From NCBI GenBank assembly GCA_017302715.1, contig JAFLCD010000004.1, positions 1 to 64,000 on the forward strand: a DNA stretch of 64,000 bases, read 5' to 3'. The notes below the pieces were generated by a model that was not told the origin of the DNA, did no database searches, and saw only the letters and a list, made by a program, of their open reading frames with translations. Origin of the DNA: Deltaproteobacteria bacterium (GTDB lineage Bacteria; Bdellovibrionota; UBA2394). Positions 6,801-46,872 of the stretch are shown piece by piece (position 1 is the stretch's first letter; the number at the start of each line of letters is the position of its first letter). The position numbers and the translations under genes are program-made.

Positions 6801-7305
6801 TTCTGAAATTTCGGTCGCAGGCTTAGTGATTTCTGTAAAAGAAATTTTTACAAAAAAGGGAACGAAGATGGCCTTTTTTACTTTAGAAGATCGAGAGGCG
6901 AGTATCGAAGTGGTGATGTTCTCGGATCTTTTTGAGCGAAAAGGAAACTTGCTTGCTAAGGAACGCGTACTTTTGGTGAAAGCTCAAGTGAGCCGCGAGG
7001 GCGATATGACAAAATTACTCGCTCGAGATATTTCGGATTTATCTCAAGTTCAATTTTCTGAACTTCATATTCGTTTGGCGCAAAAATCTCACGTCGATCG
7101 CCTAGAGCTTTTCTCGGAGCGCGTTCGAAAATATCCAGGCGCCATTAAAGTGAAAGTGCATATTCCGGTCGATGCCGCCGTTGAAGGAAAAGAACTGCGA
7201 GAATCTCATGTGACCGTTGAAACTAATTTTGAAGTTTCGACTCATCCGGAACTTATGAATTGGTTAAGTAGTGAGTTCGGTGAAACCTCTTTAAGTTTGC
7301 ATTAA
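3874..7305 (+). CDS. dnaE: DNA polymerase III alpha subunit
   Basis: This is the replicative C-family polymerase, 1143 residues and close to full DnaE1 length. An N-terminal PHP domain (1 to about 200) precedes the palm: GPGRGSGAGS, catalytic Asp at 390 and 392 (PDFDVDF) and Asp556 (KFDFLGLRN). It is followed by the fingers, a tandem HhH region (AECLIRSGALDGLG) and an OB-fold (about 970-1050). The GTG at 3874 has an AGG 5 nt upstream; the ATG at 3889, which gives MIPLRLHTDFS, is an alternative. The PHP motif ITDFDN has Phe where active PHP domains usually carry His, so intrinsic proofreading is doubtful. The stop overlaps the convergent flagellin stop by 4 bp. Confidence 0.97.
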   Translation: MNFRFMIPLRLHTDFSLLKAMVSVEKYVTALKARGYAGGAITDFDNAFGWVDFYFQMKKAGLKAVLGTTLSLALDGQTSDRQKSKGNVSFLVLNAEGYQNLCLLLSSYSLQNLTIEKWKERSAGLVMLVSPDHPNLSVDVSPLLEIWPKENLFFEIHRVENGPDEEAAVAAAKKWGAQCVATQPVYFLDPEDWNAHEVMLSIGASTTIADENRPKLVSRDFNLKTREQMEGIFRDRPEWLRASEDILARVKFEWKSDDYHIPKYEDLKKSGFKKIDDLLDEECRKGLEARLELVKTYTPAEKFPALKKVYEDRLKEECEIIHRMRFSDYFLVVADFIRWSKSHDIPVGPGRGSGAGSLAAYCLSIVDIDPVRYTLLFERFLNPERVSMPDFDVDFCIKGRDQVIRYVREKYNLTAQESGKEAIEENLKVAQIITFGKMKSKAVIRDVGRALGIPYQDVDAIAKLIPNILNITLADAYEKEPEFANLRARDPKADELLKIADRLEGLNRHASVHAAGVVIADDILTKYIPLYRGSDQEIVSQFEMKGVEKLGLLKFDFLGLRNLTVIQECIRLTGQEIDLLKINYDDPKVMGELSLGDTVGIFQLESSGMRDVIRRLKPTCLEDIIAIVALYRPGPLEGGMVDDFILRKAGRTPVVYDSPVLEPILKETYGVFVYQEQVMKTANVMAGFSLGEADLLRRAMGKKIASEMAQQREKFVEGAKKLGQSEHLAQKIFDLMSEFAKYGFNKSHAAAYAMITVQTAYLKTYFPEAFFAALLSSESEDIDKLGYIIRAATAGGIEVLSPHVNFSHTDFALEESEDRKKIRYGLSAIKNLGDNVSEAIVKEREENGKFKSFENFFSRAPIQILNKRQAECLIRSGALDGLGATRASLFASLDSLMGNAAADGQAKLVGQKALFASKPKMKIVEEWADRIRLNDEKHLLGTYMTGHPLKAFQALLQSFKTRSIQDLHEKAAPSKDSEISVAGLVISVKEIFTKKGTKMAFFTLEDREASIEVVMFSDLFERKGNLLAKERVLLVKAQVSREGDMTKLLARDISDLSQVQFSELHIRLAQKSHVDRLELFSERVRKYPGAIKVKVHIPVDAAVEGKELRESHVTVETNFEVSTHPELMNWLSSEFGETSLSLH

Positions 7306-9176
7306 CTATCAAATTTTAAAAGCTGCAGCACGAGAGAAAGTTGTACGTTGGCTTGCGCAAGAATGGCGACTTGAGCTTGCTGCAGAATTTGATTTCTAAC
7401 GAGCTCGGCTGTTTCAAGAGCAAGATCTGTATCTTTTGCGTTTGATCGTGCCTCTTCTAAGCTTTCGCTAATCAGTAAATTATTAGCAGCCGCCATATCG
7501 AGTCGGCTATGTAGACCACCTAGTTTAGCTTGCTCACCTTTTAGACTTGTTAAGGCGTCATCCAAAATATCGAGAAGATTTTTTGCACTTGATTGAGTCG
7601 ACACATTCATATCAGCGCCCGATGCAGCAGATGTTGAGTAAGCTCTCGCGATGGCAATTTGAATACCGTCAGAGTCGCTAAGATTTACGATGTCAGCGAC
7701 TCCGTCGCCATTGAAGTCTCCATTCGTAAGATAACTCGAGCTGTTGAAATCATTGGTATCAGCTACGGTAAAAGTTCCAGCTCCATTATTGAGGTAAGTT
7801 TTTCCATTACCTCCAACTACGTCTAAAGCTCCGTCTCCATTGACATCGATGGCAACGAGATTTGTTCCCGAATTGTGAGAGTTGCCAGGAAGAGTAGCAC
7901 CCGCTGTGAAATTTACTCCTGTGCCGTCTCCGAAAAAAACTTGATTGTTTCCGGTTCCGATAAAATCCATTTTTCCATCGCCATTGAAGTCGCCTGTGAC
8001 TGAAATACCTCCAGCAAAACTTGTAGCAAATTCATAACTAGCGTTTGCTTCGAAATCGCCTTGTCCATTTGCGAGATAAATTCTGCTGAAATCGTTAGGA
8101 CCATCGTAGTTGATTAAATCTTTCAATCCATCGCCGTTCATGTCTGCAAGTTCAAAAACGGAGAAAGCGTCTATCGTGATAGGATTCATGGTCACTGCAC
8201 TTTGAAAAGTTCCATCTCCATTTCCGAGGTACTTAAAGAGATTATATCCAATAGCATTTGAAGTAATGATGTCTTGTTTTCCGTCACCGTTGATATCGGT
8301 AATAACGACATCTTGTCCTGCTGCAAGTGTCATTCGAGCTTTGAAAGTTCCATCTCCATTTCCGATAAAAATAGAAACGGTCTGGTCGCCAATATCACTG
8401 GTGATCAGATCAGAAACACCGTCACCGTTAAAGTCAGCTAAGCGAATGGTATAAGGAAAGCTTCCTGCAGAAAGAGAAGTGGAAGGGGTAAAAGTTCCGT
8501 CTCCTTTTCCGAGCAGGATTCTGACTTGATCTGCGCCAACATCTGCAGCGGCGATATCTTGTTTTCCGTCACCGTTAAAATCTCCGACGACAGCTTTGTA
8601 AGATTCAGTCGCAAAATAATTTACAGGCGTATCAAAAGATCCAGAGCCGACTGTTTTTGTAAAAACATTTGAAGAATTTAAATTTCCAATTTCAAATTGA
8701 ACAAGATCTTGTCCGCTTTGAGTGTTGGCAGAAATTTGCAAAGTCTTTTGTCCGAAACTTCCATCTAAAAGTTTTGTTCCATTGAATTCTGTTTGATTGG
8801 TAATTCTTTGGAATTCTTGAAGCAGTTGATTAAGTTCATTATTTAAATTATTTCGATCGCTCGTTGAAAGAATTCCATTTGAAGCCTCGATTGCAATTTC
8901 TCGCATTCGATTGACGATATTAATTTGAACATCGATAGCGGATTCGGCCGTATTGATCATTCCGATCGCTTGATTGATATTTTGATTTGCTTGGCGAAGT
9001 CCGCGAGTTTGCGCTTCGAGTTTATTACTTTGAGCGAGCGCGACCACATCACCATCGAAGGCGCTATTCGCACGACTGCCTGAAGAGAGGCGAGCGAGCG
9101 AGCGTGCAATCGCCTTTGTTGTCGTCGACAACTGGCGCTGCGCCATCAAGCTAGAAATGTTAGTCGTTATCCTCAT
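7302..9176 (-). CDS. Flagellin with an inserted seven-repeat FG-GAP/VCBS beta-propeller
   Basis: This 624-residue protein has flagellin ends. Residues 1 to about 165 carry the D0/D1 helices (ITTNISSLMAQRQL, RLSSGSRANSA, NRMREIAIEASNG, EFNGTKLLDG). About 530-624 carry the C-terminal coil (GLHSRLD, DTDLALETAELVRNQILQQA). In place of the usual variable surface domain lie seven D-x-NGDG-x-x-D motifs starting at residues 199, 248, 294, 345, 396, 444 and 487, spaced 43-51 residues apart. Most are followed by GNGDGTF-like turns. This is the signature of FG-GAP/VCBS repeats with Ca2+ loops, and seven units fit a closed propeller. If polymerised, the propellers would decorate the filament surface. The D1 segment around 39-50 diverges from the usual AGDDAAGLA. 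It lies alone, away from the flagellar operons. An AAAGGA lies about 12 nt before the ATG. Confidence 0.93.
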   Translation of the reverse strand: MRITTNISSLMAQRQLSTTTKAIARSLARLSSGSRANSAFDGDVVALAQSNKLEAQTRGLRQANQNINQAIGMINTAESAIDVQINIVNRMREIAIEASNGILSTSDRNNLNNELNQLLQEFQRITNQTEFNGTKLLDGSFGQKTLQISANTQSGQDLVQFEIGNLNSSNVFTKTVGSGSFDTPVNYFATESYKAVVGDFNGDGKQDIAAADVGADQVRILLGKGDGTFTPSTSLSAGSFPYTIRLADFNGDGVSDLITSDIGDQTVSIFIGNGDGTFKARMTLAAGQDVVITDINGDGKQDIITSNAIGYNLFKYLGNGDGTFQSAVTMNPITIDAFSVFELADMNGDGLKDLINYDGPNDFSRIYLANGQGDFEANASYEFATSFAGGISVTGDFNGDGKMDFIGTGNNQVFFGDGTGVNFTAGATLPGNSHNSGTNLVAIDVNGDGALDVVGGNGKTYLNNGAGTFTVADTNDFNSSSYLTNGDFNGDGVADIVNLSDSDGIQIAIARAYSTSAASGADMNVSTQSSAKNLLDILDDALTSLKGEQAKLGGLHSRLDMAAANNLLISESLEEARSNAKDTDLALETAELVRNQILQQAQVAILAQANVQLSLVLQLLKFDS

Positions 9177-9388
9177 CGCTTCTTTTTCAATCCTTTATGG
9201 AGCTATGCCCCAAGTTTTTTTTAAAAACGCAAACATCAGTTTTGAATCGGCGTCATCGTGAGAATCTAAAAGAAAACATTCATTAAAATGAAAGACGAGA
9301 AGCTTAATCAGGCGCTTAAGTGTGAGTTGTCGATCTGCATCAAAGTCGTTTACATCGCGCGTCGAAGGTGGCCAACTAGGGGTAAGTC
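9177..9388. promoter_or_regulatory. Divergent intergenic region between propeller flagellin and hflX
   Basis: These 212 bp separate two divergent genes and must hold both promoters. On the minus strand GCCGATTC (9251-9244) matches the FliA (sigma-28) -10 consensus GCCGATAA in 6 of 8 positions. The -35 partner at the expected distance is only TTTA, so the call is weak. The hflX side ends in AGGGG a few bases before the ATG at 9389. No terminator or RNA gene is seen. Confidence 0.35.
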
Positions 9389-13957: not shown

Positions 13958-13973
13958 TGGTATGACACTTGCT
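13958..13973 (+). promoter_or_regulatory. Sigma-54 (RpoN) type promoter for the fliL operon
   Basis: TGGTATGACACTTGCT fits TGGYAYR-N4-TTGCW, with exactly 10 bp between the GG and GC elements. Transcription would begin near 13984, about 40 nt before the fliL ATG at 14026. This also rules out any fliL start upstream of 13984. Confidence 0.75.
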
Positions 13974-14025
13974 CTTAAGATCTGCGGATCACTGTCTCTA
14001 TTTTTTGATTGGGGAGTATGCAGTT

Positions 14026-14565
14026 ATGGCAGAAGAAGCAAAAGCACCAGATGGAGCAACGCCTGAAGAGGGTGGAAAAAAGAAACTTCCACTGTGGGTA
14101 ATTATTTTAATTGCGAGTCAGGTCGTCGTCGTTGTTGCCGCGATTGTAGTTTTTAAAATGATGAGCGGAGCTTCGCATTCGAGCGAAGAGAAGCATGAGG
14201 AGCCATCGGCAGCTGAGCAGAAGGTGGATCCTGAAAAATTAAAAGATCCAAAAACTTTAACAGGTCCTCAATTCAACTTAGATGCGTTCATCATCAATTT
14301 GATCGATGACGGTCGAGGTCCTCGTTACCTCAAAGTTGAAATGAAATTTGAGTTAGAAAACGAAGCAGTACGCGAAGAACTCGATAGTCGCATTAGTCAA
14401 ATTCGTGACGAAATGCTCACTCTTCTTAGCTCAAAGCGTCAAACGGACATCGAGACGACCGATGGAAAAAGAATTCTCAAGGATGAAATTTATACTCGAA
14501 TTAATAAAATTCTTGTGACGGGACGCATCAAACGCGTTTTCTTCACTGAATTTGTTGTTCAGTAA
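14026..14565 (+). CDS. fliL: Flagellar basal body protein FliL
   Basis: This 179-residue single-pass inner membrane protein has a short acidic cytoplasmic tail, a TM helix at about 22-42 (PLWVIILIASQVVVVVAAIV), a charged linker and a periplasmic FliL domain (FNLDAFIINLID, RYLKVEMKFELEN, RISQIRDEMLTLLSSK, GRIKRVFFTEFVVQ). It supports the stator around the motor. The ATG at 14026 is chosen because GGGGAG lies 9 nt upstream and because an upstream TTG in frame at 13969 would precede the predicted transcription start. It is the first gene of the export/switch operon. Confidence 0.95.
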   Translation: MAEEAKAPDGATPEEGGKKKLPLWVIILIASQVVVVVAAIVVFKMMSGASHSSEEKHEEPSAAEQKVDPEKLKDPKTLTGPQFNLDAFIINLIDDGRGPRYLKVEMKFELENEAVREELDSRISQIRDEMLTLLSSKRQTDIETTDGKRILKDEIYTRINKILVTGRIKRVFFTEFVVQ

Positions 14566-14577
14566 GGAGACGGCAAA

Positions 14578-15594
14578 GTGGCAGACGAAGGTACAGGCGA
14601 TAAAATTCTATCCCAATCCGAAGTAGATGCGTTGCTCGGCGCCGTTAATCAAGGCGACGTGAAAACCGAATCGAAAATAGGAGCTGGATCGAATTTAGAC
14701 AAATACGATTTTTCGAAGCAAAGAAAGCTTGTCCGTGCACGTATGCCCGGACTCAAAATCGTTTACGATCGATTTCAGCGCTCTTATCGACAGACTCTTT
14801 CAAGTCTTGTTCGAAAAGTTGTTGTCGTTGAAGTTCTTCAAACAGAAATGATGCGATACAGCGAGTGGATTGCAACTTTGCCTGTTCCATCTTGTTTGAA
14901 CATCGTTCGTCTTTCTCCGCTCATTGGTCAAAGCATTATCTCTCTCGAAATTCCTTATGTGTACACGCTGATCGATAATATTTTCGGCGGCGGAAAATTT
15001 GGTCAGAACCGACAAAAAGAAGGTGATTTCACTTCTATCGAACTGAAGATGATTCAAAAGTTGATTCATTATTTTACGAATGATCTCGAAAAAGCTTGGT
15101 CAACTCTTTACGAACTCAATTACGAATTCGTTCGAACAGATATGAATCCTGAGTACGTAAGTATCGTTGCTCCGAGTGATATCGTTGTCGTTACAGATTT
15201 CGGCGTTAGCTTTGAAGAAACGACAACTCGAATGCAAATGGTAGTTCCACTTTTTGCATTGGATCCAATTAAGCAACTTCTTTCGGATCATACTTTCGTT
15301 GAACAATCTCAACCTAATCCAAACTGGAAAATCTGGCTGAGCCAATCCATCAATGGATCCAAAATTAATTCAAATGTTTTACTCGGAAAAACTGAGATCA
15401 CTATGGGTGAAGTTTTAGGTTTGAAATTAGGTGATACGATTCAACTCGATCAATACGTTTCAAATCCACTGACGATGTCGGTAGAAACGGTTCCAAAATA
15501 TGCCGTTCGCATGGGAACAAGTTGCGGACAAAAAGCAGTACAAGTCGAACAAGTTTTCGACAGAAAATCAAATTCAGAAGACGACGAAGAATAA
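14578..15594 (+). CDS. fliM: Flagellar motor switch protein FliM
   Basis: This 338-residue C-ring protein has the N-terminal LSQSEVDALLGAV (CheY-P binding segment), a middle CheC-like domain (TLPVPSCLNIVRLSPL, LIDNIFGGG) and a C-terminal SpoA/FliN-like domain (LGKTEITMGEVLGLKLGDTI). It starts with GTG at 14578 behind AAGGAG, 12 bp after fliL. It binds phospho-CheY and sets rotation direction with FliN and FliG. Confidence 0.97.
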   Translation: MADEGTGDKILSQSEVDALLGAVNQGDVKTESKIGAGSNLDKYDFSKQRKLVRARMPGLKIVYDRFQRSYRQTLSSLVRKVVVVEVLQTEMMRYSEWIATLPVPSCLNIVRLSPLIGQSIISLEIPYVYTLIDNIFGGGKFGQNRQKEGDFTSIELKMIQKLIHYFTNDLEKAWSTLYELNYEFVRTDMNPEYVSIVAPSDIVVVTDFGVSFEETTTRMQMVVPLFALDPIKQLLSDHTFVEQSQPNPNWKIWLSQSINGSKINSNVLLGKTEITMGEVLGLKLGDTIQLDQYVSNPLTMSVETVPKYAVRMGTSCGQKAVQVEQVFDRKSNSEDDEE

Positions 15595-15606
15595 AAGGAG
15601 AACGCC

Positions 15607-15972
15607 ATGGCAGATGAAACAACACCACCAGGAACAGACGCAGGAGCAACACCACCACCAGCTCAAGAGCATCAAGTGAATGAGCTGACTCCTACGCAAA
15701 ATGCCGGACCTGCTCGTCCGATAGATTTTTTGCTCGATGTTCCGCTGACAATGAGTGTGGAACTTGGACGAACAAGAATGCTTGTGAACGATTTACTTCA
15801 ACTCGGACAAGGTTCGGTTGTTGAATTAACAAAATTAGTGGGTGAGCCACTCGAAGTGATGGTGAATGAAAAACTTATCGCTCGAGGAGAAGTCGTTGTA
15901 CTCAACGATAAATTCGCAGTTCGTTTGACGGACATCATTTCACCTAAAGATCGTTTGGATAAATTGTCTTAA
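15607..15972 (+). CDS. fliN: Flagellar motor switch protein FliN
   Basis: This 121-residue protein has a Pro/Thr-rich N-terminal tail (1 to about 40) and then the SpoA domain: LLDVPLTMSVELGRTRMLVNDLLQLGQGSVVELTKLVGEPLEV with NEKLIARGEVVVLNDKFAVRLTDI (parts of a continuous domain). It forms the bottom of the C-ring with FliM. AAGGAG lies upstream of the ATG, 12 bp after fliM. Confidence 0.96.
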   Translation: MADETTPPGTDAGATPPPAQEHQVNELTPTQNAGPARPIDFLLDVPLTMSVELGRTRMLVNDLLQLGQGSVVELTKLVGEPLEVMVNEKLIARGEVVVLNDKFAVRLTDIISPKDRLDKLS

Positions 15973-15986
15973 GAGAAAGCTGAATT

Positions 15987-16307
15987 ATGGCGGATATGTC
16001 TCAATGGATGATTTTATTAAGAACGGTTGGAAGTCTTGCGCTCGTTATTGTTCTCATCATGGCGCTTTCTTGGGTCGCAAAAAAATATCTGCGACCAGAA
16101 AATTGGGCGGGCTCAGGACTAAAAGCGATCAAAATTATTCAAACTTATCCGATCGAACCTAAAAAGAAATTGATGATCGTAGAAATTGATCAAAAAAGAC
16201 TTCTTTTAGGTATTGCCGATTCTTCGATTTCTACCTTGTGCGAACTCGATCCGGCGATGATCTCGGCGACAGAGAATTCTTTGGAGGAAAAACGTTATGG
16301 TCTCTAA
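15987..16307 (+). CDS. fliO: Flagellar biosynthesis protein FliO
   Basis: This is a 106-residue protein with one TM helix at about 8-28 (LLRTVGSLALVIVLIMALSW) and a cytoplasmic domain (QTYPIEPKKKLMIVEIDQKRLLLGI) typical of FliO, which assists assembly of the FliP/Q/R export gate. The 3' end overlaps fliP by 11 bp. The position between fliN and fliP agrees with the assignment. Confidence 0.9.
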   Translation: MADMSQWMILLRTVGSLALVIVLIMALSWVAKKYLRPENWAGSGLKAIKIIQTYPIEPKKKLMIVEIDQKRLLLGIADSSISTLCELDPAMISATENSLEEKRYGL

Positions 16308-17061
16308 AAAAGTTCTCAGCTCGTTTGGCCTTGCGGCATTTGGATTTCTGTTCTTAGCCTCTTCGGTTTTTGCAGATGGAATTCCTTCTGTAAATTTAAG
16401 CGTGGGTGGAACGGCAGGTCCCAAAGAAATCAGCACCACTCTTCAAGTCTTGTTCATGATCACGATTTTATCTCTCGCTCCAGCGATCATCGTGACGATG
16501 ACGTCGTTCACTCGATTCGTGATTGTGTTTTCTTTACTTCGACAAGCGATCGGAGTTCATCAAGTTCCACCCAATCAAGTTTTGATTGGTTTAGCTTTTT
16601 TTATGAGCTTTATCGTGATGGGACCAACTCTCAAAAGAATGAATGAGGACGCACTTCAACCTTATCAACGAAATGAATTGAGCCAAAAAGAAGCTCTTGA
16701 AGCTGCAGGAAAACCTCTTCGCGAATTCATGCTGGCGCACACTCGCGAAAAAGATCTCGCTCTTTTTGTTTCTCTTTCAAATAAAGAAAAGCCAAAGACG
16801 ATGGATGAAGTTTCGATGGCCAATATTATTCCATCCTTCATTATCTCAGAACTAAAGACAGCCTTTCAAATCGGATTCATGATTTACGTTCCATTTCTTG
16901 TGATCGATATCGTGATCGCTTCGGTTTTGCTCGCGATGGGTATGTTGGTTCTTCCGCCCGTTATTATTTCGCTACCGTTTAAACTGATGCTTTTTGTTTT
17001 AGTGGATGGATGGAACCTGATCGTTGGCAGTCTTATTAAATCTTTCGAGGTGGGCGTATGA
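16297..17061 (+). CDS. fliP: Flagellar export gate protein FliP
   Basis: This 254-residue integral membrane protein has a cleavable signal (to about residue 27, SSVFADG) and the family motif LAPAIIVTMTSFTRFVIVFS with RQAIGVHQVPPNQVLIGLA, then IIPSFIISELKTAFQIGF and further TM helices. It forms the FliP5-Q4-R1 export gate. GGAGG precedes the ATG; the stop overlaps fliQ as ATGA. Confidence 0.97.
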   Translation: MVSKKVLSSFGLAAFGFLFLASSVFADGIPSVNLSVGGTAGPKEISTTLQVLFMITILSLAPAIIVTMTSFTRFVIVFSLLRQAIGVHQVPPNQVLIGLAFFMSFIVMGPTLKRMNEDALQPYQRNELSQKEALEAAGKPLREFMLAHTREKDLALFVSLSNKEKPKTMDEVSMANIIPSFIISELKTAFQIGFMIYVPFLVIDIVIASVLLAMGMLVLPPVIISLPFKLMLFVLVDGWNLIVGSLIKSFEVGV

Positions 17062-17327
17062 CGCCACAATTTATTGAAGGGTTTGCATTCGAAACATTGA
17101 AACTCATTCTTTTAGTTTCCGCTCCCGTTTTGTTGGTAGCGATGGTGGTTGGATTTGCGGTTTCTGTTTTGCAAGCTACGACTCAAATTAATGAAGCGAC
17201 AATTGGATTCGTTCCAAAAATTGTGGCGATCTATGCGACTCTGATTTTATTTTCAGGATTTATCATGGATCGATTGATGAATTTTTCAGCTGGCATTTTT
17301 GGAGATTTTTCGAGGTTTGTGAAATGA
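17058..17327 (+). CDS. fliQ: Flagellar export gate protein FliQ
   Basis: This 89-residue protein has two TM helices (about 15-38 and 50-75) and the motif QATTQINEATIGFVPKIVAI of FliQ. It overlaps fliP and fliR by 4 bp each (ATGA type). It is a subunit of the export gate. Confidence 0.96.
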   Translation: MTPQFIEGFAFETLKLILLVSAPVLLVAMVVGFAVSVLQATTQINEATIGFVPKIVAIYATLILFSGFIMDRLMNFSAGIFGDFSRFVK

Positions 17328-18124
17328 AGGGAAGTCTTGATTTCATGGAGATGATCAAGCCTGAGACGATTGTGCTTTTCACTCTCGTCTTGGTTCGCAT
17401 TGGTGGCATTTTTCTTGCTTCACCAATGCTCAGTAACTCAGCAGTTCCTCGTCGTGTAAAACTCGCGATTACAATCGCTTGTACTTTTTTACTTCTTCCT
17501 ATTTTAAAAGTTCCACCTCTCGATCAAGTGAAGACCGAAATTGGTCTCATTGTGCTCATTCTTCAAGAACTTACTATCGGAGTTGTTCTTGGATTTGCCG
17601 CTTCGGTTGTTTTTAGCGCGATTCAATCGGCGGGAGAAATTTTTGGAACTCAAATCGGATTCTCTATCGCCACTGTTTTTGATCCTGCGAACGAAGGATC
17701 TGCCGGAGTTCTGACAAGTCTTTACGTGATTCTTGGGGCTTTGATTTTTCTCTATCTCGATGGACATCATGTCATTCTCACTGCGATGGCAAAGAGTTTT
17801 GAAGTGCTTCCAATTTCTAAAGGGTTTGGATTTGGAGTCGGAATGGAAATCTCTCACCTCACCGCAAGATTATTTTTAATTGCGATTCAAGTGGCTGCTC
17901 CTGTGACGGTGGTGATGACTATCTTAAGTATTATTTTTGGTTTGCTCACCAAGCTATCACCTCAGATGAACGTCTATATGAACTTGGGTTTTATTTTAGG
18001 CCCCATGGTTGGAATGGTTATTTTGCTTTTGAGTTTGCCACTCTTTCGAGTGGTGATGACAAGTTTAACACAAGGAATGGCTCCTGATCTTTTAAAAGTA
18101 ATGAAAGAGCTTAAAGGAATTTAA
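17324..18124 (+). CDS. fliR: Flagellar export gate protein FliR
   Basis: This 266-residue polytopic membrane protein has the FliR pattern (VRIGGIFLASPMLSN near residue 24, VPRRVKLAITI, GEIFGTQIGFSIATVFDP, LSPQMNVYMNLGFILGPMVG). It is the single R subunit of the export gate. The start overlaps fliQ; flhB begins 2 bp after the stop. Confidence 0.97.
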   Translation: MKGSLDFMEMIKPETIVLFTLVLVRIGGIFLASPMLSNSAVPRRVKLAITIACTFLLLPILKVPPLDQVKTEIGLIVLILQELTIGVVLGFAASVVFSAIQSAGEIFGTQIGFSIATVFDPANEGSAGVLTSLYVILGALIFLYLDGHHVILTAMAKSFEVLPISKGFGFGVGMEISHLTARLFLIAIQVAAPVTVVMTILSIIFGLLTKLSPQMNVYMNLGFILGPMVGMVILLLSLPLFRVVMTSLTQGMAPDLLKVMKELKGI

Positions 18125-18126
18125 AC

Positions 18127-19230
18127 GTGGAAGATGCCGGCGATAAAACAGAAGACGCCACAGCTAGCCGCCTAGAGGAAGCGCGCGAACGCGGCGACGT
18201 TCCTCAGTCTAGAGAGTTTGGAAGCTTTATGGTCTTCTTAGGCTTCACCATTACTGCCTATTTTTTCGCAAAATTTTTTCTCTCTCATGTTTTGAAACTT
18301 TTTGATCGATATTTTGATTTCAAGTCCATGCAATTAGAAACATCCCAAGATTTTATGGTTCTTTCTGCAGCAATTCTAAAAGACATTCTTGTTTTGTGCT
18401 CGCCGATTTTAATCGGCACCGTTGTCTTTGGAATTGCAGCTTCTTTGGGTCAATTCGGGTTTTTATTTACGACTGAAAAAATTAGTCCGAGTTTTGAAAA
18501 AATAGATCCGATTAAAGGTTTTGCTAAAATTTTCTCAAAAGAAACCGTCGTAGAATTTATTAAATCATTTTTAAAACTCACCTTAGTTTCGTTTGTGCTC
18601 TATCTAGTGTTGAAAGGGGAGATTAAGCATCTCACTCAATTAGGCATTGAACCCATGTCGAATATCTTTCTGTATTTTATTCAACTCATCATGAAAGTTA
18701 TTTTTTCCATTTTGATTTTTTTAGCCATTCTTGGACTTTCGGATCTTGCTTATTCTAAATGGAGTTACGCTCAGAAAATGAAAATGAGTCTTCAAGAAAT
18801 TAAAGACGAATCAAAGCAAAAAGATGGAGATCCTTTTGTTAAAAGTCGTATTCGTCAGCTTCAGCGCGATCGAGTTCGAAAAATGATGATGAAAGAAGTT
18901 CCCACTGCGGATGTAATCGTTACAAATCCTACCCACGTCGCCGTTGCCCTTCGCTATCAAAGAGGTGTGATGCGAGCACCTGTTGTAGTTGCAAAAGGCG
19001 CAGGCGTCATTGCAGTTCGCATTAAAGAAATTGCAGCAAAAGCTGGCGTACCCATCGTCGAAAAGAAAACTCTCGCTCGATATTTATATCGCAATATTGA
19101 AATTAACGAAGTGATTCCGGAATCACTTTATACAGCGGTCGCAGAAGTTTTGGCCTACGTTTACAAAATTAAAAAGCAATTTACAGCAATGATTCAACCT
19201 CAAAGAAATGTGCAGGTTCTAAATGGCTGA
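18127..19230 (+). CDS. flhB: Flagellar export switch protein FlhB
   Basis: This 367-residue protein has four TM helices in residues 30-215 and a cytoplasmic domain with the autocleavage motif NPTH at 267-270 (VIVTNPTHVAVALRY). The N-terminus EDATASRLEEARERGDVPQS is classical. It uses a GTG start. Cleavage between N and P switches secretion from rod/hook to filament substrates. The end overlaps flhA by 8 bp. Confidence 0.97.
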   Translation: MEDAGDKTEDATASRLEEARERGDVPQSREFGSFMVFLGFTITAYFFAKFFLSHVLKLFDRYFDFKSMQLETSQDFMVLSAAILKDILVLCSPILIGTVVFGIAASLGQFGFLFTTEKISPSFEKIDPIKGFAKIFSKETVVEFIKSFLKLTLVSFVLYLVLKGEIKHLTQLGIEPMSNIFLYFIQLIMKVIFSILIFLAILGLSDLAYSKWSYAQKMKMSLQEIKDESKQKDGDPFVKSRIRQLQRDRVRKMMMKEVPTADVIVTNPTHVAVALRYQRGVMRAPVVVAKGAGVIAVRIKEIAAKAGVPIVEKKTLARYLYRNIEINEVIPESLYTAVAEVLAYVYKIKKQFTAMIQPQRNVQVLNG

Positions 19231-21352
19231 AACTAGAGAAGTTGAAATTCACGGCCACCCAACATTTGGTCTGCCAGTTTCAAGTTTAATCAAGAGCCGA
19301 GAAACGATGCTCGGCTTTGGATTGATCGCAGTCGTCCTAGTCATGATGATTCCTCTTCCGGCATTCATGCTGGATCTGATGCTTGTGCTTTCACTTGCAT
19401 CGTCGCTTGTGATTTTTTTGATTGCGATTTACACAGTTAAGCCCATCGACTTTACGATTTTTCCCACTGTTCTTTTGATGGTTACTATTTTTAGACTCGC
19501 TCTTAATATTGCATCCACTCGTTTGATTCTCACTCACGGAGGAACGGGATCCGATGCAGCCGGTCAGATCATTCAAACTTTCGGAAGCTTTGTTATCGGT
19601 GGAAATTACGTCGTCGGTATCATTGTTTTTATTATTCTGGTCGTTATCAATTTTATTGTTATCACCAAAGGTGCCGGTCGTATCGCTGAAGTCGCTGCTC
19701 GATTTACGTTGGACGGAATGCCTGGAAAACAGATGGCGATCGATGCCGATTTAAATGCCGGACTCATCGACGAAGATGGAGCGCGCGCTCGTCGAAAAGA
19801 AATTGAAACCGAAGCAGATTTTTATGGATCGATGGACGGTTCTTCGAAGTTTGTTCGCGGAGATGCGATCGCTGGTATCATCATTACGATCGTTAATATC
19901 GTCGCGGGTCTTATCATCGGTGTTCTTCAAAATGGTCAGAATATTATGCAGGCTGCGCAGAACTATACGATCTTAACAGTGGGTGAAGGTCTTGTTGCGC
20001 AAATTCCTGCGCTTATTGTTTCGACTGCCGCTGGTATCATCGTCACTAAAGCAAATACTTCTGGAAAAATGTCAGACGAAGTTCACAAACAAGTTTTCAT
20101 GCAGCCTCAAGCTTTCTTGGTTGCGGCTCTTGTTCTCGGAGTCGGAGCGCTTCATCCGAGCATGCCTACGATTCCATTCGCGATTGCAGCAGCTGTTCTT
20201 TTTTATATGGCCTCGAAAGCGAAGAAGCAAGTTGATCAAGATATCGCGCAAAAAACGGCTGATGAGATGCAAAAGAAAATGGCTGCCGGTGTTGAGAAAC
20301 CTCAAGAGTTCGATCCAACTTCTTGGGTTTCGCCTGTGGATCTTTTGGAACTCGAAGTGGGTTATGGTTTAGTAGCGCTTGTCGATGAAAGACAAAATGG
20401 AGATTTACTTAAACGTATGACTCATCTTCGTCGGCAGTTCGCTCAAGAAATGGGATTTGTTGTTCCGCCAATTCATATTCGAGATAATTTACAACTTCGC
20501 CAAGGTGAGTACGCCGTTTTAGTTCGAGGAGTACGCGTCGGCGGTGGAGAACTTTTCTGTGATCAATTCTTAGCGATTGATCCAGGAACCACGAGCGGAA
20601 AAATCGAAGGCGGAATCGATACCAAAGAACCTGCGTACGGACTTCCCGCATTTTGGATCACGGAAGATAAAAAAGAGAGAGCGCAACTTTTGGGCTACAC
20701 GGTGGTGGATAATTCAACCACTCTCGCTACCCATATCAGCGAAATTATTAAATCTCATTCAGCCGATTTGCTCGGCCGTCAAGAATTGCAGAAACTTTTG
20801 GATAAACTCAGAGAAACTCATCCAAAAGTTATCGAAGAACTTACACCTGAACTTATTTCAGTGGGCCAAGTACTTCGCGTTTTGAAAAATTTATTGAGAG
20901 AAGGAATTCCGGTTCGAGATCTGCCTACGATTTTAGAGACGATTGAAGATTATGCTTCTCGAACAAAAGATCCTGACGTTTTGACAGAGCATGTGCGCGA
21001 AGCCTTAGCGGCCACGATCACTCAAGCTTTCTCGCAAGACGCTAAATTAAAAGTTTTAGTTTTAGATCCAGATCTCGACGAAGCGATTTCAAGATCACTT
21101 ATCAAAACAGAAGATGGAGTTCAAATTACTCTCGATCCTAAGCGTGCGCTTGCAATGATTAATTCTCTTCAAGATGAATGTCAGCGCTTAGCCGATGAAG
21201 GTATTCAGCCCGTTGTGCTGACTTCGCCAAGTGTTCGTTTATATTTTAAAAAGTTAATCGAAAGACAAGTTCAAAATTGCGCAGTGATTTCTCATTCTGA
21301 AGTAACGGCGCTCAGTAAACTGGAAAGCTTGGGGGTAGTGAAGGTCTCTTAA
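19223..21352 (+). CDS. flhA: Flagellar export apparatus protein FlhA
   Basis: This 709-residue protein has about eight TM helices in the first 345 residues with the conserved cytoplasmic FHIPEP-type loop (KGAGRIAEVAARFTLDGMPG, MAIDADLNAGLID), then a large cytoplasmic nonameric ring domain (370-709). It docks chaperone-substrate complexes. Full length and all family blocks are present. Confidence 0.98.
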   Translation: MAETREVEIHGHPTFGLPVSSLIKSRETMLGFGLIAVVLVMMIPLPAFMLDLMLVLSLASSLVIFLIAIYTVKPIDFTIFPTVLLMVTIFRLALNIASTRLILTHGGTGSDAAGQIIQTFGSFVIGGNYVVGIIVFIILVVINFIVITKGAGRIAEVAARFTLDGMPGKQMAIDADLNAGLIDEDGARARRKEIETEADFYGSMDGSSKFVRGDAIAGIIITIVNIVAGLIIGVLQNGQNIMQAAQNYTILTVGEGLVAQIPALIVSTAAGIIVTKANTSGKMSDEVHKQVFMQPQAFLVAALVLGVGALHPSMPTIPFAIAAAVLFYMASKAKKQVDQDIAQKTADEMQKKMAAGVEKPQEFDPTSWVSPVDLLELEVGYGLVALVDERQNGDLLKRMTHLRRQFAQEMGFVVPPIHIRDNLQLRQGEYAVLVRGVRVGGGELFCDQFLAIDPGTTSGKIEGGIDTKEPAYGLPAFWITEDKKERAQLLGYTVVDNSTTLATHISEIIKSHSADLLGRQELQKLLDKLRETHPKVIEELTPELISVGQVLRVLKNLLREGIPVRDLPTILETIEDYASRTKDPDVLTEHVREALAATITQAFSQDAKLKVLVLDPDLDEAISRSLIKTEDGVQITLDPKRALAMINSLQDECQRLADEGIQPVVLTSPSVRLYFKKLIERQVQNCAVISHSEVTALSKLESLGVVKVS

Positions 21353-21378
21353 TCGAGAGATCTTTTGGAGGATAACAT

Positions 21379-22830
21379 ATGGGAATTCAAATAAAAAAAT
21401 TTCAAGCGGCGACATTACAAAAAGCGATTGAACAAGTGCGATCCGAGATGGGTGATAACGCCATCATTTTGCAAACAGAGCCTGTGCGCGGAAACAAAGC
21501 TCTCGGACTTTTTGGTCGAGAGATGATCGAAGTAACGGCCGCGATTGATCGAAAAGAACTCGCCCCTCGCTTTCATGCCACTGTTACGGACAAGGGCGAG
21601 ACTGCGACAACGACTTCAACAAAAACCACCGCTACCACCGATTCAAAAAATACCGGTTGGAAAGCACTTTTAGGTTTAGATCGAAAAGCTTTGAAAAAAG
21701 CTCAAGCAGAATTTATTCCTCTTAATCCTGCAACAACTTCGAAAGCTACAAAAGCTCTTGCTGCTTACGCTGCACCTACGACAGATGATGAAGGTACAAA
21801 GCCATCTGTTTCGGCTTCACAGATTTACGCGATGAAAACTTTCATCGAACCTCTTCAAAAAGAAGTTGAAACTTTAAAAGCGAAAATTTCTAAAACTGAA
21901 ACGACGCCTTCAACGATGACGACTCCTGCTAAAAAGCGAATTAAGGATCCTCTTGAGCATGAAGTTCAAATGCTTAGATCTCAACTTTCTGCTTTCATCA
22001 ACGAAAAAAGATTTGAAGGTCAGAATTTGCCTTCGTATTTCAAACAAATTTTAAATTTCTGGAACGATAAAGGGATGACCAATCGTCAGATATTTAATTT
22101 CTTTAAAGCCATGGAAAACTGGGGCTCTGAATTTAATGCTTCTACTTCGATGATCCATGCATCTCAAACTTTAACAACGGCTCTCGATGGAAATATCGCC
22201 GAAGCCAATGTTTTTGAAAAAAGAGAAAAGAGAATTGTCGTTCTCGTTGGACCGACTGGCGTTGGCAAAACCACCACCATGGCTAAGTTGGCCGCTCATG
22301 AAAAATTAAAGTTAAAAAAATCTGTCACTCTATTAACAATGGATGATTATAAAATTGGTGGAACCGATCAACTTAATCATTACGCGAGAATTTTAGAAGT
22401 TCCTTTTACTAAAACTCGCTCGGACATGACATTAGAAGACCAATGCAAGATCGATACTTCAGATACTTTGTTCATTGATACTTTTGGAGTGGCCGCTTCG
22501 GATACGCAAAAAATTGAAGGCTTAAAGAAAAGTCTGATATTTAAAGATCCTGAGCTCGCAAAGAGATTAGAAATTCATTTGGTACTTCCTGTGGGAATCG
22601 CTCCAGCGGATGTTTCGGATGCTCTTGCTCAGTTTGCAACTTTGAATCCAGCTTATTTGATTTTTACCAAATGGGATGAAACTCAGAACTGGGGTGGAAT
22701 GCTTACGACCATTTTAGAAAGTCGAAAGCCCGTTTCGTTTGTATGTAACGGTCAGAATGTTCCAGATGATGTTTCTCGTTTCTCTAAGAAAAAATTCATC
22801 GAAACGATTACAGAAGTTTATACGGATTAA
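21379..22830 (+). CDS. flhF: Flagellar SRP-like GTPase FlhF
   Basis: This 483-residue protein has a B domain at the start (IKKFQAATLQKAIEQVRSEMG, NAIILQTEPV), a long Thr/Ala/Lys-rich linker and an NG domain: P-loop GPTGVGKTTTMAKLAA near 293-308, DDYKIGGTDQL, DTFG and TKWDET. It controls flagellar placement and number with FlhG. GGAGG lies before the ATG. The position before flhG and fliA matches polar-flagellated bacteria. Confidence 0.95.
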   Translation: MGIQIKKFQAATLQKAIEQVRSEMGDNAIILQTEPVRGNKALGLFGREMIEVTAAIDRKELAPRFHATVTDKGETATTTSTKTTATTDSKNTGWKALLGLDRKALKKAQAEFIPLNPATTSKATKALAAYAAPTTDDEGTKPSVSASQIYAMKTFIEPLQKEVETLKAKISKTETTPSTMTTPAKKRIKDPLEHEVQMLRSQLSAFINEKRFEGQNLPSYFKQILNFWNDKGMTNRQIFNFFKAMENWGSEFNASTSMIHASQTLTTALDGNIAEANVFEKREKRIVVLVGPTGVGKTTTMAKLAAHEKLKLKKSVTLLTMDDYKIGGTDQLNHYARILEVPFTKTRSDMTLEDQCKIDTSDTLFIDTFGVAASDTQKIEGLKKSLIFKDPELAKRLEIHLVLPVGIAPADVSDALAQFATLNPAYLIFTKWDETQNWGGMLTTILESRKPVSFVCNGQNVPDDVSRFSKKKFIETITEVYTD

Positions 22831-22842
22831 GTTGGGGGATTT

Positions 22843-23697
22843 ATGGATCAGGCAAAAAATTTAAGAGATCAAGTTGCGAAAACCAAAACACATCGACCAA
22901 TCAAAGTGATTTCGATCACCAGTGGAAAGGGCGGAGTAGGCAAAACTCAAGTCGTTGCTAATTTGGCTTTGGCTTTAAAAGCAAAAGGCCAAGAAGTTTT
23001 GATTTTTGATGGAGATATGGGTCTTGCGAATATCGACATCATCTATAATATTTCTCCAAAATATAATTTGAAACATCTTATGGATGGTTCAAAAACAATA
23101 GATGAAGTTATTTTTAACGGTCCCGACAATGTGAAAATTATTCCGGCCGCTAGTGGAATTCAAGAGCTCACCGAACTCACTGATCAAAATAAAATGGCGC
23201 TCGTCGATCAGATCGATCAACTCGAAGGTAAGTTTGATGTTGTGCTGATCGATACGGCCGCAGGAATTTCGGACAACGTCATGTATTTAAATTCTGCCGC
23301 GCAGTCTATTTTCGTAGTGGTGACTCCAGAACCCACAAGCATCACTGACGCCTACGCGTTGATCAAAGTGATGGCGACACGATACGGAGAAAAAACTTTT
23401 TACATTGTTACGAATCAAGTTCGATCCGATGCCGAAGCCAAAACAATCTTTAATTCTTTGCAGAACGCAGCGGATCAATTCTTAGATTCGGTTCAGCTGT
23501 GGCATTTACACTCTTTTCCCTATGAAGAGAAAGTGCGTCAATCGATCGTGAAGCAACAACCCATGGTAAAATTTGATAAAGACGGAGCGATCGCGAAATC
23601 TTACAAAGAGCTCGCTGAGAAAGTCGTCAAATTAGAAACCAATAATCAAAAAGGCGGAATGCAATTCTTTTTGAAACAAGCGCTGATGGGAAAATAA
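22843..23697 (+). CDS. flhG: MinD-like ATPase FlhG (FleN)
   Basis: This 284-residue protein has a deviant Walker [11 protein letters not shown], near 27-36, DGDMGLANIDI, a DTAAGISDNV switch and VVTPEPTSITDAYALIK. These are hallmarks of FlhG/YlxH. It stimulates FlhF GTPase and limits flagellar number. The C-terminal tail (about 265-284) may be a membrane-targeting helix. It lies 12 bp after flhF. Confidence 0.95.
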   Translation: MDQAKNLRDQVAKTKTHRPIKVISITSGKGGVGKTQVVANLALALKAKGQEVLIFDGDMGLANIDIIYNISPKYNLKHLMDGSKTIDEVIFNGPDNVKIIPAASGIQELTELTDQNKMALVDQIDQLEGKFDVVLIDTAAGISDNVMYLNSAAQSIFVVVTPEPTSITDAYALIKVMATRYGEKTFYIVTNQVRSDAEAKTIFNSLQNAADQFLDSVQLWHLHSFPYEEKVRQSIVKQQPMVKFDKDGAIAKSYKELAEKVVKLETNNQKGGMQFFLKQALMGK

Positions 23698-23729
23698 GCG
23701 CGAGTTAAAATGGGTGAGGGTAGATTTCT

Positions 23730-24500
23730 TTGAAGAATCTGGGAGCTTATAAAAAGGTTTTGAAGCGTGATTTGAGCTCACAAGAAAAGACCGAGCTCAT
23801 CGAAAAATACGCTAACCTTGTCAAGATCATGGCCTATCGTTTGATTGGTCGTCTTCCTGCATCTCATTTTGTTGAGGATCTGATTTCTTGCGGAACGATT
23901 GGTTTGCTTGAGGCCATCGAAGCTTTTGATCCTACTTTAAATATTAAATTTGAAACCTTTGCAAAATTTAGAGTGCGCGGTGCCATGATTGATGAGATGC
24001 GATCTCGCGATTGGATTCCGCGATCGGTTCGTTCGAAAATTCGCGAGCTCGATTCGCTTCACAGAAAAGTTTCAAGTCAACTTGGTCGAGTTCCGAATGA
24101 CAACGATATGTCGAAAGCTTTGGGAATGGATTTAGAGCATTACTACAATTACATCGTCGACCTTCAGCCGGCTGGGATGATGTCCTATGAAGATATCGGC
24201 GGATCCGATATGCCAGAAAAAAGCATTATCGATTTCTTGGAAGATCGAACTTCACCTCATCCCGATCTTGAAGTGCAGATGAAAGAACTTAAATCTCGCA
24301 TCATCGAATCACTTGAGCAACTCGATCAAGATGAGCAACTTGCGATGGCGCTCTATTATTACGAAGGCTTAACGCTTAAAGAAATCGCAGAAGTTTTACA
24401 AGTTACCGAATCTCGCGTCAGTCAAATTCATTCCAAAGCTCTGATGAAACTGCACTGGCGGCTCGATCAATATAAAAACGATTTTAAGGAAAATGTGTAA
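23730..24500 (+). CDS. fliA: Flagellar sigma factor FliA (sigma-28)
   Basis: This 256-residue sigma-70 family group 3 factor has region 2 (YANLVKIMAYRLIGRLPASH, DLISCGTIGLLEAIEAFDP, KFETFAKFRVRGAMIDEMR, RDWIPRSVR), region 3, and region 4 (LTLKEIAEVLQVTESRVSQIHSKAL). The start is TTG at 23730; the ATG at 23710 is out of frame and stops at once, so TTG is preferred. Its anti-sigma factor FlgM is encoded at 30317. Confidence 0.95.
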   Translation: MKNLGAYKKVLKRDLSSQEKTELIEKYANLVKIMAYRLIGRLPASHFVEDLISCGTIGLLEAIEAFDPTLNIKFETFAKFRVRGAMIDEMRSRDWIPRSVRSKIRELDSLHRKVSSQLGRVPNDNDMSKALGMDLEHYYNYIVDLQPAGMMSYEDIGGSDMPEKSIIDFLEDRTSPHPDLEVQMKELKSRIIESLEQLDQDEQLAMALYYYEGLTLKEIAEVLQVTESRVSQIHSKALMKLHWRLDQYKNDFKENV

Positions 24501-24511
24501 GGAGAATGAAC

Positions 24512-24883
24512 ATGGAAGTAAAACAATTCGTCGTAGCTAACGGAACTAATATTATTTTCGGATTGATGATTTTTATTCAATGGGTGGCGTTGCAAGCTTT
24601 ACTCGTTCACTATCATTTATTTAGAAAAAATCTTAAGCAACCTCGGCCCGACGGCATTCGCTTACAACTGTTAGAAAAAACCGTCGCTGTTCAAAACGAA
24701 CAACTCGATCGCATTTATGGCAAGTTGGCTGAAATGAGAAAAGATCTTAACTACGCCGTCACTCGCGAACCTGTTGCGACTTCACGAGTGATCGAAGCCC
24801 CATCACTTGAAAAAACTTTCGCATCGGTCGGCGAGATGAATATGAAGAAGCGAATTCAAGAACTCAAAGCGATGACAAATTAA
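24512..24883 (+). CDS. Small membrane-anchored protein after fliA (possible export regulator)
   Basis: This 123-residue protein has one N-terminal TM helix (about 12-32, NIIFGLMIFIQWVALQALLV), then an amphipathic, probably coiled-coil segment (LQLLEKTVAVQNEQLDRIYGK, 45-75) and a charged tail. The ATG at 24512 is chosen because GGAG lies 7 nt upstream; the ATG at 24506 is only 1 nt from it. It is 11 bp after fliA in the same operon. Position and architecture resemble SwrB, which follows sigD in Bacillus, or DUF2802 proteins, but homology is not shown. Confidence 0.7.
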   Translation: MEVKQFVVANGTNIIFGLMIFIQWVALQALLVHYHLFRKNLKQPRPDGIRLQLLEKTVAVQNEQLDRIYGKLAEMRKDLNYAVTREPVATSRVIEAPSLEKTFASVGEMNMKKRIQELKAMTN

Positions 24884-25446
24884 TTTTTTTCTGGACGCAA
24901 CATGTCTGCATTTTCTTGGCTTGCAGAAGGAGGCAACTCTTCTTTTGCCTCCGAATATTTTTCAATATTTGTTCCTTCTATTTCAAGATAGTAAGGACGG
25001 CGAGGTTTTAATTTTTGCGATTCGAAATTTTTATTTAAATTATTTATCTCAGATATCATCTTTTTGACTTCTTCTTCAGTGATTAGATTATGGATCTTAA
25101 GTGTTTTGTGCTGTTCTTCATGTTCAAATGGTAATTCGCATATACCAGTTCCACACTCTTCATCTGATAGTTTGTTTGCTTCAGCAATTTCGGCTGCAGC
25201 GAAAGCTTCCTCTTCTTCGAGTGAGAGGGGATGATCATTCTCTACCGACAGTCTAATATCGGCCAACGTAAGCCCTGCATCTAAGGCATCCTGAATCATG
25301 GCTGGAGTGGCTTCTAAGTCTTGAGATTTTTGTTGAACTTTGCTTTGGGAAATATTTTCTATTGGCTTTTCTTTTGGATCGGCTTTTGCTTTTTCATTGA
25401 ATGCTAAAATTCCAACTGCTGCCAAAATAATAAATAAATTTTTCAT
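24880..25446 (-). CDS. Secreted acidic hypothetical protein
   Basis: This 188-residue protein has a signal peptide (MKNLFIILAAVGILAFNEKAKA, cut before DPKE). The mature protein is Glu-rich and includes ECGTGICELPFE, a CxxxxC pair. A start at 25446 is preferred because GGAG lies about 9 nt upstream and the start overlaps the stop of the upstream ORF as ATGA; the Met at 25461 is the alternative. The 3' end overlaps the convergent gene at 24883 by 4 bp. Function unknown. Confidence 0.65.
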   Translation of the reverse strand: MKNLFIILAAVGILAFNEKAKADPKEKPIENISQSKVQQKSQDLEATPAMIQDALDAGLTLADIRLSVENDHPLSLEEEEAFAAAEIAEANKLSDEECGTGICELPFEHEEQHKTLKIHNLITEEEVKKMISEINNLNKNFESQKLKPRRPYYLEIEGTNIEKYSEAKEELPPSASQENADMLRPEKN

Positions 25447-25757
25447 GCGATCAGTCTCCATCTCGGTTTTCTTAAATATCCACTGCTAAGAAATGCAAAT
25501 TTGATGCCGGGACGCTTTTTTACTAAGTCGCTATAACGCTTGGACTTTTTTACCCATCTCAATATTGAGACAGTCATACCTTCATATCTCATCTGCATTC
25601 TTTGCGAGCCTACAGCCTGTCCCGGGACAGGCTTGTGATCTGGCACCTTCGGGGCCCGACCCCTAAAATCACTCGGCAAAGACTCGGCAAGAGCTGCCGT
25701 TCGCGCAGAGAAATTTTGCTCTGCAGCAACTCGCAACAACTTAAAATTATTCAACAA
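25443..25757 (-). CDS. Doubtful small ORF containing an in-frame CCCGGG palindrome
   Basis: This 104-residue ORF ends with an ATGA overlap on the secreted gene, which argues for translation. The Arg/Lys-rich C-terminus (SILRWVKKSKRYSDLVKKR, FAFLSSGYLRKPRWRL) looks protein-like. The middle (KVPDHKPVPGQAVGS) is made of repetitive palindromic DNA, and the N-terminal part overlaps the region shared with the fliL upstream sequence. It may be a degraded gene into which repeats were inserted. No family is recognised. Confidence 0.35.
   Translation of the reverse strand: MLNNFKLLRVAAEQNFSARTAALAESLPSDFRGRAPKVPDHKPVPGQAVGSQRMQMRYEGMTVSILRWVKKSKRYSDLVKKRPGIKFAFLSSGYLRKPRWRLIA
25614..25666. repeat. Two adjacent repeat families: CCCGGG palindrome and truncated GGCACCTT/CCGACCCC element
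   Basis: Bases 25614-25633 are the 20-bp palindrome AGCCTGTCCCGGGACAGGCT. Seven bases on, CTGGCACCTT (25640-25649) and CCCGACCCCT (25655-25664) match the right half of the larger element behind fliC (36190-36231). Two repetitive families thus sit together here. Confidence 0.7.
25679..25699. promoter_or_regulatory. Second copy of the small GC hairpin found upstream of fliL
   Basis: AAGACTCGGCAAGAGCTGCCG is the reverse complement of the 13895-13915 element with two differences. ACTCGGCAA is also directly repeated at 25671 and 25682 (11-bp period). It lies about 115 bp before flgF. Confidence 0.4.
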
Positions 25758-25775
25758 ATCTACGACGCGGCACGC

Positions 25776-25791
25776 AGGAATGAAGATTGCT
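25776..25791 (+). promoter_or_regulatory. Candidate sigma-54 promoter for the flgF operon
   Basis: AGGAATGAAGATTGCT has GG and GC with the obligatory 10-bp spacing and a good TTGCT -12 box, but the -24 box is imperfect. Transcription would start near 25802, leaving a leader of only about 13 nt before the GTG at 25815. It is weaker than the fliL promoter. Confidence 0.4.
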
Positions 25792-25814
25792 AGTAAAGCG
25801 GTAGGGAGACACTT

Positions 25815-26561: not shown

Positions 26562-26576
26562 GAGGAAAAATAATTT

Positions 26577-27362: not shown

Positions 27363-27364
27363 AA

Positions 27365-28812: not shown

Positions 28813-28830
28813 AAAAGGGATTTTATAAAA

Positions 28831-30658: not shown

Positions 30659-30662
30659 GTAT

Positions 30663-32587: not shown

Positions 32588-32588
32588 T

Positions 32589-46830: not shown

Positions 46831-46872
46831 GGCCCGATTCTTGCTTATTTATAAGTTTTGAAGGTTTATGTA

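Follow-up and report, generated by a model that had tools for sequence, protein, structure and literature searches.

The window analysed here is a stretch of 64,000 nucleotides (nt) from Deltaproteobacteria bacterium (assembly GCA_017302715.1, contig JAFLCD010000004.1, positions 1 to 64,000), and the gene that concerns us, on its minus strand at 7302..9176, encodes a flagellin whose outer domain is a predicted seven-bladed FG-GAP/VCBS beta-propeller. Our main finding is that this gene belongs to a multi-copy family of propeller flagellins, with a constant flagellin shell and a variable propeller, that has probably evolved twice. The gene, which overlaps by 4 nt the 3' end of a convergent dnaE-like open reading frame (ORF), can be divided as follows:

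7302..9176, minus strand: coding sequence with an ATG start, 624 amino acids, flagellin with a predicted FG-GAP seven-bladed propeller as outer domain
8664..9176, minus strand: flagellin shell, N-terminal D0/D1 half, residues 1-171 (Flagellin_N, solved filament flagellins, AlphaFold2 helices)
8607..8663, minus strand: junction and predicted ring-closing ('velcro') strand, a GxGxF turn (GSGSF) plus strand, residues 172-190
7617..8606, minus strand: predicted seven-bladed FG-GAP/VCBS propeller, residues 191-520 (FG-GAP_3, repeats, AlphaFold2, Foldseek)
8556..8582, minus strand: blade 1, putative Ca2+ loop DFNGDGKQD
8409..8435, minus strand: blade 2, putative Ca2+ loop DFNGDGVSD
8271..8297, minus strand: blade 3, putative Ca2+ loop DINGDGKQD
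8118..8144, minus strand: blade 4, putative Ca2+ loop DMNGDGLKD
7965..7991, minus strand: blade 5, putative Ca2+ loop DFNGDGKMD
7821..7847, minus strand: blade 6, putative Ca2+ loop DVNGDGALD
7692..7718, minus strand: blade 7, putative Ca2+ loop DFNGDGVAD
7305..7616, minus strand: flagellin shell, C-terminal D1/D0 half, residues 521-624 (Flagellin_C, one AlphaFold2 helix at 528-623)

In Pfam, Flagellin_N matches residues 3-140 (E = 9.2e-31, 107.2 bits against a curated cut-off of 26.6) and Flagellin_C residues 535-620 (E = 9.5e-12, 45.5 bits against a cut-off of 23), and between these two ends both FG-GAP_3 (E = 1.9e-40, in six stretches) and FG-GAP (E = 2e-20) score above their curated cut-offs, E-values that exclude a chance origin of the matches. 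The shell also matches solved filament flagellins, by sequence as well as by fold. The original prediction, made from the letters of the window alone, that flagellin D0/D1 ends flank an FG-GAP/VCBS propeller standing in place of D2/D3 is thus borne out by Pfam, AlphaFold2 and Foldseek alike, and so is its count of seven evenly spaced D-x-N-G-D-G-x-x-D motifs between residues 199 and 495, since these start at 199, 248, 294, 345, 396, 444 and 487, 43-51 residues apart. Five positions of this motif are each 88-100% conserved at all seven blades among 49 relatives, and judging from this signature the seven loops would bind Ca2+.

A closed seven-bladed ring had likewise been foreseen, with an AlphaFold model, profile searches and a search of genomes for the same fusion proposed as ways of checking it. 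Using a hidden Markov model (HMM) built from the repeats, we found exactly seven full repeats in every one of the 49 fusions examined, with an extra partial match of 11-14 residues directly before repeat 1 in eight of them. A simple pattern finds the GxGxF turn and strand ahead of repeat 1 in 39 of the 49, and because the last repeat is without precisely that part, a shift by one strand would close the ring, as is the case in the VCBS propeller AAL2 (PMC4483166). AlphaFold2 models the full window protein with helical ends (long helices of the N-terminal half at 5-32, 44-98 and 105-128) and four-stranded blades, at a predicted local distance difference test score (pLDDT) of 79 and a predicted template-modelling score (pTM) of 0.57; the propeller domain alone gives a pLDDT of 79 and a pTM of 0.79. 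When submitted to Foldseek, the full model retrieves many flagellar filament structures (E down to 1.7e-17), while the best PDB matches of the domain over its whole length are the seven-bladed lectins PVL and AAL2 (template-modelling score 0.61-0.63 by query length), and a KICSTOR propeller, CRTAC1 and integrin are matched too; a sequence search of the propeller leads to the same neighbours. Since the AlphaFold2 model is weak around residues 426-436 and its coordinates were not inspected, the closed ring is a strong prediction and not a measurement.

Three kinds of relatives have unusual middles. A giant flagellin of 1596 residues (L139:553-5340, in the UBA2394 genome G001) has three of its seven repeats before and four behind an insert of about 980 residues that has no significant Pfam match, and a fusion of 889 residues (L145:527-3193 in G002; also L024) carries about 250 extra residues, with no domain assignment, between the N-terminal shell and a seven-repeat propeller. 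The known exceptions to the number seven are L157:1625-3001 and L181:1468-2832 (G1109), proteins of 455-459 residues with about three FG-GAP repeats in a middle region of 205-214 residues, too few for a ring and perhaps forming a different fold or an oligomer.

The window protein does not stand alone. We searched its genome (G000; 2.39 megabases, 96% complete and in 19 contigs) for matches to Flagellin_N and FG-GAP_3 and then read the loci. Besides the window gene, this revealed a pair of fusion genes on C12 and single ones on C9, C6, C1 and C17, seven in all. The six paralogues are 35-52% identical to the window protein and keep the full domain order, apart from the C6 copy, which is cut by the contig end and is without its C-terminal end. 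Ordinary flagellins without an insert are also present in this genome, one of them beside FliD- and FliS-like ORFs. The shell motif SAxDDAAGLAIS of flagellins reads SAFDGDVVALAQ in the window copy, one residue longer (residues 38-52, about 9021-9065), and the paralogue C12b shows a similar change, SAFDGDTASLSI. A 1097-residue ORF with FG-GAP repeats and no flagellin match (G000:C12:137552-138616) is a possible relative of the propeller's source in the same genome.

Copies of the fusion resemble one another in the shell and differ in the propeller. In the tandem array L152, which comprises four genes, the N-terminal ends are 88-95% and the C-terminal ends 91-94% identical, against 31-35% for the propellers, which differ as much as propellers between phyla do. 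Among the 49 proteins, the mean identity of the N-terminal shell drops from 67% within genomes to 43% between genomes, and that of the propeller is 33% within and 31% between genomes. The shells of L152 have a nonsynonymous divergence (dN) of 0.04-0.12 and a synonymous divergence (dS) of 0.45 to saturated, and its propellers a dN of about 0.75. Such a low dN against high-to-saturated dS indicates strong purifying selection on the shell, in keeping with parts that have to co-polymerise. Recent gene conversion as the sole cause of the near-identical shells is ruled out by the same dS values, and because the synonymous sites of the shell have diverged strongly, purifying selection should be regarded as the main cause of their likeness. 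The four genes of this array (L152:4963-12381, G1109:C33) lie head to tail and are separated by three identical 27-nt junctions, GGGAGGTAGATAGAATGCCGATTACCC.

Which parts of the propeller vary can be related to how it is joined to the shell. According to the predicted topology, the chain would pass between shell and propeller within the CD loop of blade 7, entering at the closing strand D and leaving after strand C. Since both connections then lie in the CD loop, and AB and CD loops share one face, the D1 shell would attach to the calcium-loop face, and therefore the BC and DA' loops should face away from the filament. Within arrays, the match rate is 0.68-0.70 for the Ca2+ loop, 0.52-0.58 for the CD loop and 0.13-0.16 for the BC and DA' loops, the random baseline being about 0.087, and the rates across both lineages that carry the fusion (see below) are practically equal to these. 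The most variable loops are thus those of the face predicted by topology to point outward, and in PVL and AAL2 it is the BC and DA' loops that build the sugar site (PMC4483166). The strands outside the Ca2+ and CD loops are also near random between copies. We interpret this pattern as a constant framework whose outward face varies, and the loops may have been under diversifying selection. A diversity-generating retroelement is unlikely in the window's genome, which has no match to the reverse transcriptase family RVT_1; G001 has one such match and G1109 three.

We looked for relatives with a profile of the seven G000 proteins in four phyla. In the large searches scoring was limited to the three or four best candidates of each genome, a setting that did pick up the fusions in genomes of the window's family and so had its positive control. 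In this family fusions were observed in all five sampled genomes, which represent five genera and include Bacteriovoracaceae bacterium UBA2394 (classed in Bdellovibrionota by NCBI) and Deltaproteobacteria bacterium CG11_big_fil_rev_8_21_14_0_20_45_16. Among the best candidates of 364 other genomes of the same phylum there was no fusion: the matches were ordinary flagellins or FG-GAP proteins, never both in one gene, and the flagellins among the matches listed were mostly 277-330 residues long. A second lineage is represented by the metagenome-assembled genome Bdellovibrionales bacterium HKST-UBA19, which bears fusions and belongs, by the genome collection's own classification, to a phylum other than the window's. 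Matches were found in 19 of the 46 genomes of that phylum searched, mostly full-length fusions and partly in tandem arrays, with the highest copy number, about 20, in G1109; its fusion-less genomes still have flagellins of ordinary size. No fusion was found among the best candidates of 399 Pseudomonadota genomes or of 294 genomes of a Planctomycetota-type phylum, in which FG-GAP proteins lacking a flagellin end scored best. A TAG interrupts one fusion copy (L053/L143, G004:C50), and immediately ahead of it the translation looks out of frame, which reflects either a decayed gene or an assembly error. In all, the original prediction understated the case: there are six paralogues, a ring-closing strand and a second lineage with the same architecture.

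In a tree of D0/D1 only, the window's family and the second lineage each have their fusions in a clade of their own (support 99 in both cases), and the shells of the second lineage's fusions group with the ordinary flagellins of that lineage. Forcing all fusions into a single clade costs 54 log-likelihood units (p-AU, from the approximately unbiased test, 0.03). Because the shells fall into clades by lineage and the joint clade is rejected, two independent acquisitions of the propeller appear to be the better reading of these sequences, rather than a single old origin with later replacement of the shells. The propeller tree is poorly resolved. An origin from a phage or plasmid was considered and rejected, as none of the phage and plasmid records matches over 80% of the query; among the matches listed, those to plasmids are for the most part FG-GAP proteins and extend over about two thirds of it at most.

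That the window's genome encodes a flagellum follows from a cluster of flagellar genes in the window itself, on the strand opposite to the fusion:

13969..33539, plus strand: flagellar gene cluster with FliL-, FliM-, FliP/FliR/FlhB/FlhA-, FlhF-, FliA-, FlgF/G/A/H/I-, FlgK- and FlgL-like ORFs (translations by inspection)
34539..36068, plus strand: ordinary flagellin of 509 amino acids adjoining the cluster (Flagellin_N 2.5e-45, Flagellin_C 5.9e-24, no FG-GAP), the probable main filament subunit and a reference for the shell

The window's fusion gene lies outside this cluster, and the six other copies stand alone, away from recognisable flagellar operons. By eye, the C9 copy directly adjoins the apparent 3' end of a ribosomal RNA operon at the contig end (L012:8440-9928, G000:C9). 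An Escherichia coli-type sigma-28 promoter was sought upstream of the seven fusion genes, and the best scores were not above those of control genes. A block around TTTATAAAnAnTTnGATGCACnGC, some 25-70 nt 5' of the fusion genes, is clear in a leave-one-out analysis for the C9 and C6 copies only and weak for the others; it is possibly a common promoter or regulatory site and occurs at:

window 9177-9250, minus strand; L012:6480; L013:6794; L015:5756; L014:6021; L011:6598: TTTATAAAnAnTTnGATGCACnGC-like upstream block

Elsewhere in the window, the adjacent overlapping ORFs 46858-48114 and 48060-49301 have similar C termini by eye, and probably represent a tandem duplication of the gene for an uncharacterised secreted protein.

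What might such a family be for? We lean, with modest confidence, towards filament subunits that show a variable binding surface, with a closed propeller as outer domain and several versions per cell. The fusion flagellin would be exported and polymerised through its D0/D1 shell like any flagellin, carrying in place of D2/D3 a closed FG-GAP/VCBS propeller with a calcium-type loop in each blade, and several paralogues would join the ordinary flagellins in the filament, creating a repertoire of different binding faces that would recognise glycans or proteins on other cells or surfaces. Propellers of the VCBS/FG-GAP superfamily do bind glycans or proteins (PMC8023676, PMC4483166). The fusion, the seven repeats, the copy number, the conservation of the shell and the divergence of the loops are directly supported by the data, whereas the orientation of the propeller, Ca2+ binding, incorporation into the filament and ligand binding are what we infer. 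The original prediction had pictured a filament decorated with one rigid, adhesive propeller protein, possibly for contact with prey or surfaces. Our own reading also has a rigid, probably calcium-loaded recognition domain, and adhesion is plausible. A single protein is too simple a picture, since the family has many copies that combine a conserved shell with variable propellers, and contact with prey is only one option. A more far-reaching version, which we put forward tentatively and with less than even confidence, is that the filament serves as a combinatorial display array, with up to about 20 propeller faces per genome, that evolved twice independently and recognises a range of partners, for instance prey, surfaces or polymers.

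Several observations weigh against a display repertoire. The propeller of the window protein has no tryptophan, 22 of the 49 propellers have none at all, and the Gly-Trp (GW) motif occurs seven times in the 49. Divergence of the loops is by itself no proof of selection for diversity, since loops vary in all FG-GAP proteins, and in the propellers synonymous sites are saturated, which prevents a test for positive selection. The full-length AlphaFold2 model is only moderate, with the weak stretch mentioned above, and the changed motif SAFDGDVVALAQ in the shell of the window copy could, as far as its sequence tells, mean altered assembly. Finally, the flagellum of Bdellovibrio bacteriovorus is sheathed by membrane (PMC2791853), and a similar sheath, if present here, would hide the propellers. 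As to a specific ligand, a lectin of the PVL type that binds N-acetylglucosamine was considered and rejected, as its GW and Asn/Asp-Trp-His sugar pocket between the blades (PMC4483166, PMC8023676) is absent from these propellers.

One may also consider explanations other than a display of binding surfaces. The propeller could be a mechanical outer domain that stiffens or thickens the filament, or links neighbouring subunits, and binds nothing outside. In other flagellins a dimerisation of outer domains that tunes motility is established (PMC8931119), giant flagellins make thick filaments (PMC6248924), and conservation of all seven Ca2+ loops fits a rigid module. Such a role, however, needs conserved contacts between subunits, whereas the loops and strands outside the Ca2+ and CD loops are near random even between copies that should be neighbours in the filament, and a mechanical role does not easily account for 7 to about 20 greatly differing versions in one genome. 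We regard it as unlikely, albeit the likeliest of the alternatives.

Near-constant shells with near-random outward loops are also what one would expect of defensive diversity, in which a variety of outer domains would help the filament to avoid recognition, by flagellotropic phages or otherwise, with the propeller as simply a tolerant scaffold. A flagellotropic phage interacts with flagellins in other bacteria (PMC10399903), and phages act on flagellin expression (PMC13418256). Yet one fold with seven blades and seven Ca2+ loops in all copies of the main family is more constraint than a decoy needs, and the window's genome has no reverse transcriptase, the only form in which phase-variation devices were sought; this explanation thus seems improbable.

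That the fusions are minor or non-filament flagellins, exported by the flagellar system and then set free or retained at the cell surface, their shell ends acting as an export signal, is very doubtful: the position of the window copy outside the flagellar cluster and of the six others away from flagellar operons, the altered shell motif near residues 41-50 of the window copy, the cell-surface flagellin PDB 3k8v among its sequence and Foldseek matches, and the precedent of Campylobacter FlaC, a secreted non-structural flagellin (PMC5466977), all fit it, but in the arrays the whole of D0/D1 is under strong purifying selection, including the C-terminal half, and an export signal needs only the N terminus.

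If the display of variable propellers is indeed their role, a motility organelle would have been turned into a multi-specific recognition surface in Bdellovibrio-like bacteria, in which recognition of prey and surfaces is poorly understood. It would also be a natural design for the high-density display of seven-bladed propellers on filaments. Flagellins with foreign outer domains are already known, mostly with single enzymes or unassigned inserts. We found no description of a flagellin fused to FG-GAP, VCBS or a beta-propeller in the full text of 5.39 million open papers. In a survey of 26,587 flagellins, the ten commonest of its 61 outer domains do not include FG-GAP or VCBS (PMC5595980), and flagellins go unmentioned in the main text of a survey devoted to the VCBS superfamily (PMC8023676).

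Among the closest parallels are the flagellinolysins (Eckhard et al. 2017, PMC5595980), in which the hypervariable part exposed at the surface has likewise given way to a folded foreign domain, flanked by conserved D0/D1 ends. In flagellinolysins a gluzincin protease that has spread through lateral transfer takes this place, whereas here it is a propeller that occurs in large paralogous sets in two Bdellovibrio-like lineages; a protease of that kind was considered and rejected, since HExxH is absent from all 49 fusions. With the known VCBS/FG-GAP propellers (PVL, AAL2, integrin alpha, CRTAC1) the propeller flagellins share seven four-stranded blades (PMC8023676, PMC4483166), a DxDxDG-type Ca2+ loop in the AB turn and, by prediction, a ring closed by one shifted strand. 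They differ in that the propeller is placed inside a flagellin and is without the GW and Asn/Asp-Trp-His pocket, in that the repeats are shorter, with 49 residues against about 56, and in that the Ca2+ loop is kept in all seven blades, whereas AAL2 binds two ions. Giant flagellins (PMC6248924) also replace D2/D3 by a large central insert, although with sequences of a different kind (DE and DX regions); L139 combines a large insert with a seven-repeat propeller. Several flagellins per genome are likewise known from Bdellovibrio bacteriovorus, whose fliC1-6 products are arranged in blocks along one filament (PMC2791853), whereas in the window's genome plain flagellins coexist with seven propeller flagellins.

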